NCBI GenBank assembly: GCA_025454175.1
Contig: JALOOX010000001.1
Location: 62,001-126,000 of the forward strand
Source: Syntrophobacteraceae bacterium
GTDB lineage: Bacteria; Desulfobacterota; Syntrophobacteria; Syntrophobacterales; Syntrophobacteraceae
Reading direction: 5' to 3'
DNA: 64,000 bases
Shown here: positions 14,746 to 19,405 of the stretch, piece by piece
Position numbering within the stretch: the first letter of the stretch is position 1
Layout of the letters: every line of letters begins with the position of its first letter
The notes under the pieces: generated by a model
Seen by the model: only the letters and a program-made list of their open reading frames with translations
The model's database searches: none
What the model was told of the DNA's origin: nothing
Translations under genes and position numbers: made by a program

Positions 14746-17004
14746 TCATTTGCTGGTCATGTGGACCCAGCCCCTCCATGGAGCTTCAGGCGCCTGAACC
14801 AGAAAGCCTTGACAGAGCTCTGCGTAGAACCGGGACGGGCCGTCATCGGGAAGCAACTTGCGGCACTGCTGGAATCTTTCCAGGGCCTTCGTCCAGGATG
14901 CCGCCCTGAAGTGGGCAAGCCCTTCGGAAAAGGCATCGAGAAAACCCTCGGGAAATGAGGTCTCGCTCCCTTTGAGCCCCACCAGTTCGAAAACGCTCAC
15001 AGCTCTCTTCTTTCCCAGCAGCACGAATTCGCCAAGCTCCCGGCTCACGAGCCCTTCGAGACCCATCACCACATCACCCGTGGCCAGGATCCTGGTGTTC
15101 AGGTGCTTGTTGAGCTCCTCGATGCGTGAGGCCGTGTTGACCACGTCGCCCACGGGCCTGTACTCATAATGCCCCCTGGCGCCGAGGGTTCCCAGAACCA
15201 GTTCTCCCGCATGGATTCCCATGCGCAGGGACAGGTTAACGGGTGCGGATTCCCGGTTGAACTCCACCACCATCCGCAGCATATCCAGGGCAGCCCGGCA
15301 GGCATCCGTTCTCATGCGGGGCTCCGATGTGGAGCCGGCCCAGAGGGCCAGCATGGAATCGCCCACGAGGTCGGAGACGGTGCCCCGGTAACGCCCCACC
15401 GGCTCGAACACCCGATGGTAATATCGATTGAGGAGATCACGAAGCTCCGCCGGATCGAGACCCTCCGAAAAGGCCGTGAACCGACTGATGTCCGAAAAGA
15501 GACAGACACCGTACACGGCATGGCTGCCCCCGGCCAGATCCAGGTTCTTGCCCACCATTTCAACGAACCGCGGCGGGAGATAATGTTCCAGGGCTCGTTC
15601 GACATTTCGACGCTCCCGGTTCGACTCACGATACTTCCAGCTGATGGAGGCCACCAGCGCCAGGGGAATCTGCATGAAAACGGGAGCCACCAACGGAATC
15701 CATAGCGCATGATAGCTGAAGGCGACCCAGGCCGCGGCGACATGGAACAGCCCAAGGGTCGTGGCGCCCAGCACTGCGGCAGGGGTCGGAAGTCCCCAGC
15801 AGAGGAGACCTGCAAGAAGTCCCCAAAATATGACCAGGAGCGCCTGGCAGAGCGGGCCGACTGGGCGGAGCCAGCTGCCTTGAAGAAGGTTTCCGAAAGC
15901 CGTTGCGGCAATCTCCACCCCGCAGATATCGATCCCGTCTGGCTGGGAAAAAACCGTGTGAAAGGCATCCATCTGCTGCGGGTGGTCCAGCTCGGAAAGC
16001 CCCACGAAAACGGCCTTTCCCCGGAAATCCACGGCAGACTGCCCGGGGGCCCCCCCATCGACATCCTTCACCATTTGATGGTAAGGGATGGTGACGATGG
16101 TTCCCGGAGGCCCGTAATAGTTGAGATACAGGCTGTCACCCGAATGCGCGTACATCCGGGCGAGGGATTCCATGACGCGGACCTGCCGACTGTCGGAGTG
16201 GCTTCCTCCCCCTGCCCCGAACTGGGCCGCAAAGGCCTGCGCCGCCCGCGGCTCCCTCAGGAAGAGGGCACGCAGCCGGGCTGTCAGGGTCTCCGCCCCC
16301 TTTCCATTCACAACGTCCCGAGCAGTTCGCGGCAGGCCCGACGACCAATGCGGAGCCACCCTTTCCAAAAGCGCCATCCACGGCTCGTAGACCTGCAGAC
16401 CGTAGACCTGCAGCATCACCACGGGCAATGTGGGCACATCGCCCGCACTGGTCTTGAAAGTCCAGAACCGGCTGACCTGGATGGGCACTTTTGGCAGAGG
16501 AAACGGCGCACGAGCCAGGGCAGCCTCGGCCAGCTGGGGCGTCGGCTTCACCAGTCGCTCCACGCTGGCCCCGCCCAGCCTGTTTCCTCCGGCGTCCTCG
16601 AGGTGAAGCGTCTCCTTCCTCATGAGCTCACAGAGGACCACGTTGCCGGCGCTCTCCATGGCCATGGCGAACAGAACGTCCTGGCCGTCGTCGCGCGGAT
16701 CCTCGAAAACCAGGTCGAAACCGATGGCCAGCGCCCCTTCGGCTGCCAGCCGGTCCACCAGGCGGGCGTGGAGCGACCGGGGCCATTTCCAGGGCTGTTC
16801 CGGGAGGTTCAGAGCCTTGGCCGATGCGCTGTCCAGGGAGACGACAACCACCTCCGACGGCGGCTCCACCTTTCCCCGAAGATGGAACAGAAGCTTCAGG
16901 CCGTAATGCTCCTCGAGGGCCTGCCCCCAGGGAGAAAAGCTCAGGAGGATCCCCAATGCCCCAATCAGAATGCCCGCAAAAGCGCCAGTCCCCGGTCGGG
17001 GCAT
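14746..17004 (-). CDS. Adenylate/guanylate cyclase with CHASE2 sensor domain
   Basis: Membrane-bound class III nucleotidyl cyclase. Residues about 1-25 form an N-terminal helix. A large extracytoplasmic CHASE2 domain follows (EVVVVSLDSASAKAL, GFDLVFEDPRDDGQDVLFA, FRGKAVFVGLS). Two or three membrane helices then come (about 395-465: ALLVIFWGLLAGLLCWGL; LGLFHVAAAWVAFSYHALWIPLVAPVF). The catalytic domain has GVCLFSDISRFTAFSEGLDP (metal Asp), SDLVGDSMLALWAG (second metal Asp) and YEYRPVGDVVNTASRIEELN. ATG 17004 has AAAGG at 8 nt; GTG 17010 is possible but too close. The C-terminus (FLDAFSEGLAHFRAASWTKALERFQQCRKLLPDDGP) resembles a TPR unit. Confidence 0.92.
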   Translation of the reverse strand: MPRPGTGAFAGILIGALGILLSFSPWGQALEEHYGLKLLFHLRGKVEPPSEVVVVSLDSASAKALNLPEQPWKWPRSLHARLVDRLAAEGALAIGFDLVFEDPRDDGQDVLFAMAMESAGNVVLCELMRKETLHLEDAGGNRLGGASVERLVKPTPQLAEAALARAPFPLPKVPIQVSRFWTFKTSAGDVPTLPVVMLQVYGLQVYEPWMALLERVAPHWSSGLPRTARDVVNGKGAETLTARLRALFLREPRAAQAFAAQFGAGGGSHSDSRQVRVMESLARMYAHSGDSLYLNYYGPPGTIVTIPYHQMVKDVDGGAPGQSAVDFRGKAVFVGLSELDHPQQMDAFHTVFSQPDGIDICGVEIAATAFGNLLQGSWLRPVGPLCQALLVIFWGLLAGLLCWGLPTPAAVLGATTLGLFHVAAAWVAFSYHALWIPLVAPVFMQIPLALVASISWKYRESNRERRNVERALEHYLPPRFVEMVGKNLDLAGGSHAVYGVCLFSDISRFTAFSEGLDPAELRDLLNRYYHRVFEPVGRYRGTVSDLVGDSMLALWAGSTSEPRMRTDACRAALDMLRMVVEFNRESAPVNLSLRMGIHAGELVLGTLGARGHYEYRPVGDVVNTASRIEELNKHLNTRILATGDVVMGLEGLVSRELGEFVLLGKKRAVSVFELVGLKGSETSFPEGFLDAFSEGLAHFRAASWTKALERFQQCRKLLPDDGPSRFYAELCQGFLVQAPEAPWRGWVHMTSK

Positions 17005-17312
17005 AACCACTGCCTTTCAAGGTCCGCGACACTGCCTCAAAACCCGTGGAAACCCTCATCATAGCTGATCCACGCAGTATCCAATCCCGGCAGGGAAGAC
17101 CCGCGCTCAACCGGGCACTTCATCCCGCCCTTGACTCCGAAATGAAGATTCCACAGATCCCCGATACTTTCAAAGGGGAATTAAGGCTGTTCCCGCCAGT
17201 CATGCGCATTGACGTTGAGAAGCGGTGTTCTTGAAAGAGGCCCCGCAACCACGCGCCTTCTGGAGTCGCTGCTCTGAACCGCCGTTGACGGTTCGTTAAT
17301 GCTCCACTCCAT

Positions 17313-17427
17313 GACAACAGGATTGACAACTGTCAACATGATTGATATTCAAAGTATCCAATGGATTTGATTAATCTATTCGTAGAAGAAGTGCCGCATT
17401 TCGACAACAGGGTTGACAATTTGTGAA
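17313..17427. promoter_or_regulatory. Paired direct repeats upstream of the sigma-54 promoter (candidate activator sites)
   Basis: GACAACAGGATTGACAACTG at 17313 recurs as GACAACAGGGTTGACAATTT at 17403, exactly 90 bp apart, with partial match continuing a few bases. The first copy contains a perfect dyad TTGACA-AC-TGTCAA (17323-17336). They sit about 150-260 bp before the predicted sigma-54 start site, the distance at which enhancer-type activators bind. The factor is unknown; the adjacent GAF sigma-54 activator is the obvious candidate. Confidence 0.55.
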
Positions 17428-17548
17428 TCCTGTAACGCACTCTTCCTCAGCCAAACCAGGGCATACGGATAGGAAAGATTGGAAGAGAAGCGCGTTGGAC
17501 AAGCTCATACCTGGGATTTCGTGCTGACCCCGGGCCTGGCACAGCGAC

Positions 17549-17563
17549 TGGCACAACCGTTGC
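17549..17563 (+). promoter_or_regulatory. Sigma-54 promoter
   Basis: TGGCAC-AACCG-TTGC at 17549-17563 matches the -24/-12 consensus (TGGCACG-N4-TTGC) with correct GG-to-GC spacing. The predicted start is near 17575. It points toward the terminator at 17619-17660 and the sigma-54 activator gene at 17789. Confidence 0.75.
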
Positions 17564-17574
17564 CTTAAAGACAG

Positions 17575-17660
17575 TCAGGGCGTATGCCACTTCTCTCACA
17601 CTTCTTCAATTGTTTGGGCCTCCGCGGGGTCTCCAGGCCCCCCCGCGGGGGATTTTTTTT
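17575..17660 (+). ncRNA. Candidate sigma-54-dependent small RNA of about 85 nt
   Basis: The stretch starts about 12 nt past the -12 element and ends in the T-tract of the terminator. It contains no open frame of useful length. It could be a discrete small RNA, or a leader whose terminator is conditionally read through into the activator gene at 17789. No match to a known RNA family is recognised by eye. Confidence 0.4.
17619..17660 (+). terminator. Strong intrinsic terminator
   Basis: Stem CCTCCGCGGGG (17619-17629) pairs with CCCCGCGGGGG (17641-17651): 11 bp including one T-G pair, with an 11-nt loop. An A and eight T residues (17653-17660) follow. No protein gene on the plus strand ends before it, which supports a short non-coding transcript. 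Confidence 0.85.
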
Positions 17661-17788
17661 GCCAGCCGGCCCTTTGCCACCCCTTGGATTCAGGCTTCCG
17701 CCCCTGGCGTGCTCCTGCCGGGGTCGCACGGGGCAGCCGCCCGTCGCCGTTCTGGAATACCGTAGTCCACACTCATGGATGAAACCTT

Positions 17789-19405
17789 ATGTCCCAAACT
17801 CTCCTGGAAAGAGCCGGCGATATCGTCCGGCTGACGACGGACAGCGAGCGACTCAAGGCATTGCTCGAGGTGAGCCAGTCCCTCCACGGCTCCCTCGACA
17901 CTGATGAGCTCCTCAAGAAGGTCATCGACCGCACCAAGGGTCTCATCAATGCCGAGACGGTGTCAATCCTTCTCCACGACCCCTCGACGGACGAGCTCTA
18001 CTTCCGCGTCGAAGTGGGGAACGAAGCCCCGGAGTCCGAGAAGCTCAGGGAAGTGCGCTTCCCTGCAAGCCACGGCATCGCCGGAAGGGTGCTCGCCACT
18101 GGAAGGCCCGAGCTGATCAGGGATGTGTCCAGGGATAGTCAGCACTTCAAGCAGGTGGACCAGCTGACCGGCTTTGTGACGCACTCGATGATCGCGGCCC
18201 CGATTCAGGCCAAGGGAAGGATCACGGGCGTCATTGAAGGCTGCCATCAGCACCCGGACGCATTCACCCAGACGGACCTGAATTTCCTCTCCACCATCGC
18301 GGGCACCATCGGCATGGCTCTCGACAATGCCAGGATGTACGAGGAGCTGCAGAGCGCCTACCGCGACCTTCAGCATGTGGACCGTGAAAAGGATTTGCTC
18401 ATCGAGCATTCCCAGCACGAGAACTTCCGCCTGAGAAGAGAGCTTGAAGGCAGATATCGCTTTAGCCTCATCAAGGGCAACAGCCCCCAGCTCCTTGAAG
18501 TGCTGCAACTTTGCGAGAAGGCCATCGAGTCGGAAATCACCGTGCTCATCCTCGGCGAGACGGGAACGGGAAAAGAGCTCGTGGCCCGTTCCATCCACCA
18601 GAACAGTCGGCGAAGCCGGCACCCTTTTGTATCCCAGAACTGCGGGGGAATTCCCGAAGGCCTTCTGGCCAGCGAGCTCTTCGGCCATCGCCGGGGGGCT
18701 TTCACGGGCGCGGTGGCCGACAAGCGGGGGCTCTTCGAGGAGGCGGACAGCGGCACCATTTTCCTGGACGAAGTGGGCGACATGCCCATGTCCATGCAGG
18801 TCGCTCTTCTGCGTGTCCTGCAGGACGGGGAAATCCGCCCCGTTGGGGCCGGTCAAACCAGGAAGGTGGATGTGCGGGTGATCTCCGCCACCAACCGGGA
18901 CCTCGCCGCGGATGTCAAGAAAGGCCTGTTTCGAGAGGACCTGTACTACCGGTTGAACGTCTTTCCCATCTCGCTTCCGGCGCTGCGCGAACGTTCGGGA
19001 GACATCCCGATCCTGGTCCGGCACTTCGTGAGAAAGCACTCGGAAAGGAATCGAAAGAGTGTGAGAGGGATCAGTCGAATGGCCATGGAATGCCTTTGCG
19101 GCTATTCCTTTCCGGGAAATGTGCGCGAGCTCGAAAACGAAATCGAGCGAGCCGTCGCACTGGTGACGGAAAAAGGGATCATCGAGCTGGAGCACCTCTC
19201 CCAGACCATCCGTTCAGCCGGGATCTGCGCCACCGGTTTCGAACCGGCGGCTCAAACCACCCTGAAGCAGAAGATCGGGCTCATGGAGGTGAAAGCACTG
19301 CGGGATGCGCTCGCGAGGCACTCGGGCAACAAGACGCTGGCGGCCAGGGAGCTCGGCCTGAGCCGGTTCGGCCTCATCAAGAAGATTCAGAGATACAATC
19401 TCTGA
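17789..19405 (+). CDS. Sigma-54-dependent transcriptional activator with GAF sensor
   Basis: Enhancer-binding protein that opens sigma-54 promoters. A GAF domain (about 25-175, with DTDELLKKVIDRTKGLINAE and AAPIQAKGRITGVIEG) precedes the AAA+ domain (about 235-405). That domain has Walker A GETGTGKE, the sigma-54 contact loop GAFTGA, Walker B GTIFLDEVGDM and the arginine-finger region RDLAADVKKGLFREDLYYRLNVF. The C-terminal Fis-type helix-turn-helix is NKTLAARELGLSRFGLIKKIQRY. No receiver domain is present, so it responds to a small ligand or redox cue through GAF. The sigma-54 promoter and paired repeats upstream suggest autoregulation. Confidence 0.93.
   Translation: MSQTLLERAGDIVRLTTDSERLKALLEVSQSLHGSLDTDELLKKVIDRTKGLINAETVSILLHDPSTDELYFRVEVGNEAPESEKLREVRFPASHGIAGRVLATGRPELIRDVSRDSQHFKQVDQLTGFVTHSMIAAPIQAKGRITGVIEGCHQHPDAFTQTDLNFLSTIAGTIGMALDNARMYEELQSAYRDLQHVDREKDLLIEHSQHENFRLRRELEGRYRFSLIKGNSPQLLEVLQLCEKAIESEITVLILGETGTGKELVARSIHQNSRRSRHPFVSQNCGGIPEGLLASELFGHRRGAFTGAVADKRGLFEEADSGTIFLDEVGDMPMSMQVALLRVLQDGEIRPVGAGQTRKVDVRVISATNRDLAADVKKGLFREDLYYRLNVFPISLPALRERSGDIPILVRHFVRKHSERNRKSVRGISRMAMECLCGYSFPGNVRELENEIERAVALVTEKGIIELEHLSQTIRSAGICATGFEPAAQTTLKQKIGLMEVKALRDALARHSGNKTLAARELGLSRFGLIKKIQRYNL

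Follow-up and report, generated by a model that had tools for sequence, protein, structure and literature searches.

A candidate sigma-54-dependent small RNA beside its possible dedicated activator in a genus of Syntrophobacteraceae

A 64,000-nucleotide stretch of contig JALOOX010000001.1 from a Syntrophobacteraceae bacterium (hereafter the window, to which all positions refer) carries repeated sites, a sigma-54 promoter and, shortly downstream, a strong terminator, all placed ahead of a sigma-54 activator gene at 17789. What would such a compact arrangement produce? The sequence-only reading of this locus had offered two answers, a regulated small RNA or an attenuated leader of the activator gene. 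On the basis of comparative sequence analysis, we propose with a probability of roughly 0.7 that the locus is a dedicated activator/sigma-54 module making a small RNA of about 85 nt, which would pair in trans with messenger RNAs (mRNAs).

The element TGGCACAACCGTTGC at 17549–17563, earlier described as near-consensus, proved to be an exact sigma-54 promoter match with GG-N10-GC spacing, and it is the sole exact site in the window. Genome-wide, the exact pattern TGGCACN5TTGC occurs at 15 sites, compared with 4 for the reversed pattern. The comparison within the genus involved two genomes, that of the window (G000) and one other member (G001, in which the locus is L015); rpoN is present in both, as two genes in G000 and one in G001. 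A -24/-12 promoter and rpoN, which are generally expected together for a sigma-54-dependent small RNA, are thus both found. The predicted 11-bp terminator with eight T residues also held up: the hairpin at 17619–17651 has an energy of -23.8 kcal/mol, is followed by T8 at 17653–17660, and lies about 45 nt past the expected start. In 56 genomes of the class, we searched for a sigma-54 promoter followed by 50–110 nt and T6, using the reversed pattern as a control. Matches were obtained in 50 of the 56 genomes and the control was almost empty; the arrangement of promoter and terminator is therefore beyond chance.

When 60 related genomes were searched at the DNA level with positions 17290–17800, one strong match was obtained, in G001 (3.9e-15). 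The match spans positions 259–375 of the query, corresponding to 17548–17664, that is, the promoter, the RNA, and the terminator. Both genomes of the genus have an estimated contamination of 6–9%; the window contig is nevertheless judged to belong to the genus, because it shows synteny with G001 and a normal level of divergence. The order, strand, and gene neighbourhood of the module are unchanged in G001, with a CHASE2/adenylate cyclase gene on one side and a pterin-binding-enzyme gene on the other in both genomes. Between the two, the RNA is 83% identical (L015:1194-1281), compared with 54% for the interval from the third upstream site to the promoter, 66% for that from the terminator to the activator ATG, and 79% for the activator coding sequence. 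The 5′ block of the RNA is identical at 27 of its 29 positions. Both the -24/-12 element and the hairpin, whose conservation the sequence-only reading had proposed to check, are kept in G001; all 11 pairs of the stem are retained, with one compensatory double change from C-G to U-A and two one-sided changes.

Outside this pair of genomes, the module was not recovered. The 5′ block was not found at three or fewer mismatches in any of the 24 remaining family genomes. When a covariance model built from the two sequences (R1) was run on 395 genomes of the phylum, no further credible member came up, and in the window's own genome R1 recovered this copy alone. Two weak extra matches of R1 among the 395 genomes were rejected, as the 5′ block was missing or the stem was broken. 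This restriction to one genus would be compatible with cryptic or decayed elements, namely promoter-like and terminator-like sequences that yield no functional RNA. Such an explanation seems quite improbable to us, given the almost empty control patterns and a conservation that falls mainly on the cores of the sites, the promoter, the RNA, and the terminator.

The region upstream of the promoter provides a further element of the module. The repeats at 17313 and 17403 had been reported as two matching sites; they are real (17 nt long and 94% identical), but a further copy at 17332 brings the number of sites to three. The core shared by the three copies is the palindrome CAAC-N3-RTTG, located at 17315, 17334, and 17405. 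In the window, this pattern gave 9 strand-hits, compared with 2.8 expected, and the three-site cluster supplies four of the nine. In G001, the three sites recur with the same intervals (19 and 71 bp), one base closer to the promoter than in the window. In the ungapped alignment of the window with G001, the fixed positions of the sites are identical at 24 of 24, the N3 positions at 2 of 9, and the spacers at 34 of 68 (50%); this comparison is partly circular, since both sequences had served to recognise the motif, but the circularity does not affect the identical spacing. The locus thus has conserved upstream sites that are putatively recognised by an enhancer-binding protein, another general mark of sigma-54-dependent small RNAs.

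The candidate for this protein is encoded next to the sites, as had been noted before. The gene product matches PF00158 (1e-70), GAF, and HTH_8, and an intact GAFTGA motif was read from its translation; its counterpart in G001 is 82% identical. Its closest resemblance is to NifA, but assignment as NifA was rejected, with a score of 385.6 bits against the TIGR01817 cut-off of 528.85. From the adjacency of the gene and the sites and from their shared range, we infer that the activator binds the three sites. Activator homologues at 42–57% identity in other genera have no comparable site array upstream. The tandem pair of sites at 19-bp spacing has one exact occurrence in G000, at the window locus, and G000 and G001 each have a single CAAC-N3-RTTG site at such a distance from a sigma-54 promoter. 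In view of these single occurrences, the activator may serve the window promoter only.

The product of the promoter could also be a message rather than a small RNA. The transcript had been expected to lack a usable frame; an ATG frame at 17584–17904 does cross the RNA and the terminator, although it is not conserved. If the RNA encoded a leader peptide or a small protein, it would start with MPLLSHF at 17584. The ATG is found in both species, seven codons align with 5 of 7 identical, and an AGGG lies close upstream, but its distance to the ATG is merely 3 nt, and one of the two changes within the block is non-synonymous. A 4-nt indel after the block shifts the frame, which stays open for 106 codons in the window and reaches a stop after 22 in G001. 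As the frames diverge after seven codons, a peptide appears very unlikely.

The attenuated autoregulatory leader deserves more weight, but is still unlikely in our view. According to this explanation, the activator gene is transcribed from the sigma-54 promoter, and the hairpin between them is a conditional terminator. The activator ATG indeed lies on the same strand, about 128–129 nt past the terminator, no sigma-70-type promoter was found between the terminator and the activator gene, and self-regulation is common among activators. A conditional leader is made less likely by the strength of the terminator in both species (-23.8 kcal/mol in the window and -24.1 kcal/mol in G001, with 7–8 U). 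Moreover, a competing anti-terminator fold shared by the two genomes was not seen, and the spacer from the terminator to the ATG measures 128 nt in the window but about 216 nt in G001, with the identity falling to 66%. The best-conserved stretch is instead the unstructured 5′ block. Because of this block, the absence of a conserved anti-terminator fold, and the lower conservation and differing length of the stretch between the terminator and the activator, the small RNA is a better explanation than the leader. Of the two options left open by the sequence-only reading, the first is therefore the preferred one.

The small RNA module would work as follows. A signal would be sensed by the GAF domain of the activator encoded at 17789, which would act from the three CAAC-N3-RTTG sites, about 170–260 bp upstream of the start, and drive sigma-54 RNA polymerase at 17549–17563 to make the RNA of about 85 nt. 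The RNA would be released at the hairpin terminator (17619–17660), and its mostly unstructured, pyrimidine-rich 5′ block would then pair in trans with target mRNAs. The two ACUUCU motifs in the block are complementary to purine-rich AGAAGU, which may occur near ribosome-binding sites. We propose base-pairing with purine-rich mRNA sites because the conserved part of the RNA besides the terminator is an unstructured pyrimidine-rich stretch and not a fold. The coordinates of the features are given in Table 1.

Table 1. Features of the proposed module in the window and the terminator stem of a further RNA group
Feature	Position	Strand	Sequence and remarks
Upstream activator site 1 (putative)	17315..17325	.	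CAACAGGATTG; palindrome CAAC-N3-RTTG; fixed positions the same in the same-genus genome
Upstream activator site 2 (putative)	17334..17344	.	CAACATGATTG; 19 bp from site 1; spacing the same in L015 (933, 952)
Upstream activator site 3 (putative)	17405..17415	.	CAACAGGGTTG; perfect palindrome; 71 bp from site 2; spacing the same in L015 (952, 1023)
Sigma-54 -24/-12 promoter	17549..17563	+	TGGCACaaccgTTGC; counterpart TGGCATccccTTTGC at the equivalent place in L015:1166
Predicted small RNA, ~85 nt	17575..17660	+	Start inferred from the usual -12 distance, end from the terminator
Conserved 5′ block	17577..17605	+	AGGGCGUAUGCCACUUCUYUYACACUUCU; pyrimidine-rich, two ACUUCU repeats; proposed pairing region
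Intrinsic terminator	17619..17660	+	11-bp stem (17619-17629 with 17641-17651), 11-nt loop, A + T8
Sigma-54 activator (enhancer-binding protein)	17789..19405	+	GAF, AAA+ with GAFTGA, Fis-type helix-turn-helix; proposed activator of the promoter
Third-group terminator stem	L212-L223		CCCCATCGGC

Several results weigh against this proposal. The scan for complementary targets that the sequence-only reading had called for was unproductive: pattern searches for the complement of the 5′ block in G000 and G001 gave no target, and duplex tests with the start regions of the activator and cyclase genes gave none that was convincing in both species. Neither genome of the genus yielded an Hfq gene, while the PF17209 control was positive in five known genomes; the window RNA would consequently need to act without Hfq, and the other sigma-54 small RNAs of the genus may do so as well. 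The covariation of the terminator consists of a single double change in two genomes, which is suggestive but not significant alone, the overall fold of the RNA is unexceptional (z -1.4), and the module is carried by two genomes of one genus only. On the other side, the class contains two other groups of short RNAs with sigma-54 promoters, which shows that the design recurs and supports the small RNA.

One complement site common to G000 and G001 was rejected as a target. The site is in antisense orientation within a multihaem cytochrome-like gene, and the sequence around it is almost identical in the two genomes and hence likely to reflect shared contamination or recent transfer. This gene and an adjoining sigma-54 activator gene are near-identical in L144 (G000:C76) and L142 (G001:C27). 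Shared contamination or very recent transfer is the likely origin of these loci, because the activator gene at 17789 is only about 80% identical between the same genomes. As for the cyclase gene, a CHASE2-adenylate/guanylate cyclase gene at 14746–17010 on the minus strand of the window, it adjoins the module and has the same place in G001.

The first of the two other groups came to light among the exact sigma-54 sites of the window's own genome, one other of which precedes a short stretch and a strong terminator (G000:C11:8142-8046, minus strand; L001/L148). The twenty loci read that carry a box CUCUUUnCCUCC form one RNA group (model R2), which includes this locus and L192-L210. The layout of this second group is a box CUCUUUCCUCCUC followed by a terminator hairpin with a GCCCC loop. 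Its covariation is clear, with 96.8% of the pairs formed and 28 cells changed on both sides, compared with 8.7 in shuffles, none of 500 of which reached 28. Repeated TGGCGnGATT-like sites stand upstream of the promoters, 35 in the 20 loci against 0.36 expected. The group extends over at least 9 of the 11 genera of the family (g1, g2, g3, g4, g5, g8, g9, g10, and g11) and g15 of a sister family. No recognisable activator gene was seen beside the loci read, with the reservation that gene calls were crude and L194 was not examined by profile. By eye, several copies adjoin genes for a flavodoxin-like reductase or a thioredoxin-domain protein. The second group resembles the window RNA in its sigma-54 promoter, pyrimidine box, terminator, similar size, and presence in the same genome, but differs from it in the box CUCUUUCCUCCUC, the TGGCGnGATT repeats, and the lack of a visible adjacent activator gene. 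Membership of the window RNA in this group was rejected, since R2 gave 14.5 bits (E 0.59), mostly from the terminator.

The third group (L212-L223) belongs to family f5, mostly to genus g21, with several copies in one genome (G055). Its RNAs combine a 5′ hairpin (GGTGAGC...GCTCACC) and a run of pyrimidines with the terminator stem CCCCAUCGGC. The tested loci of the second and third groups had no match in Rfam, and the box CUCUUUCCUCCUC was not found in the literature searched; both groups are apparently undescribed. The window RNA and these groups may together represent a so far undescribed series of pyrimidine-box small RNAs driven by sigma-54 in the class, comprising at least three sequence groups with differing upstream sites, of which the second is the most widespread, and Hfq-free in the genus of the window. 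We regard the odds for and against this broader proposal as even.

The window RNA itself had no match to the covariance models of Rfam 15, including Qrr, GlmY/GlmZ, and CrcZ; only a chance match was obtained elsewhere in the region. The known systems are nonetheless instructive for comparison. In enterobacteria, the sigma-54 promoter of GlmY is activated by QseE/QseF (GlrK/GlrR) via upstream sites, and the small RNA gene directly precedes the activator-system genes (PMC6075780, PMC8745638). The window locus shares with GlmY a sigma-54 small RNA with upstream sites, placed before the activator gene; the activator there is a two-component response regulator, however, whereas that of the window is a GAF-domain protein, and the window RNA has no Rfam match. 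Qrr1 of Vibrio, which acts with LuxO, is likewise a sigma-54 small RNA preceded by palindromic sites for its activator, which in V. fischeri read TTGCAWWWTGCAA (PMC10162802). The window locus has palindromic upstream sites too, but their motif, CAAC-N3-RTTG, is another one; the sequence of the RNA and the sensor domain also differ, and no Hfq gene was found.

In Myxococcus, Pxr with PxrR/PxrK is a small RNA of 108 nt that has a predicted sigma-54 promoter and an enhancer region by an NtrC-like activator gene; it lies downstream of pxrR and has three predicted stem-loops (PMC5684412, PMC5568312). The size, the promoter, and the enhancer region by the activator gene are similar in the window. 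Identity with Pxr was rejected, because the window RNA is located ahead of the gene for a GAF-type activator and forms a single strong hairpin; this comparison was made with the published description, as Pxr may not be in Rfam. CrcZ/CrcY with CbrAB in Pseudomonadaceae is a further case of a regulatory RNA gene beside an activator gene, and CrcZ counteracts Hfq/Crc (PMC8871633). The window shares the adjoining position of the two genes, but there is no sequence match and no Hfq was found in its genus. By analogy, the window locus would work like GlmY, Qrr1, CrcZ, and Pxr, although it matches none of them by the tests run and its sensor domain differs.

Modules of an activator and a small RNA under sigma-54 are on record for a small number of model groups (GlmY, Qrr, CrcZ, and Pxr). 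That an uncultured lineage has a separate, apparently unrelated candidate module, whose enhancer site is defined and whose proposed pairing region can be recognised, suggests that this wiring has originated repeatedly. The search for a promoter, a short spacer, and a T-run needs no expression data, and it recovered two more groups without an Rfam match; sigma-54 small RNAs can therefore be surveyed directly in uncultured bacteria.
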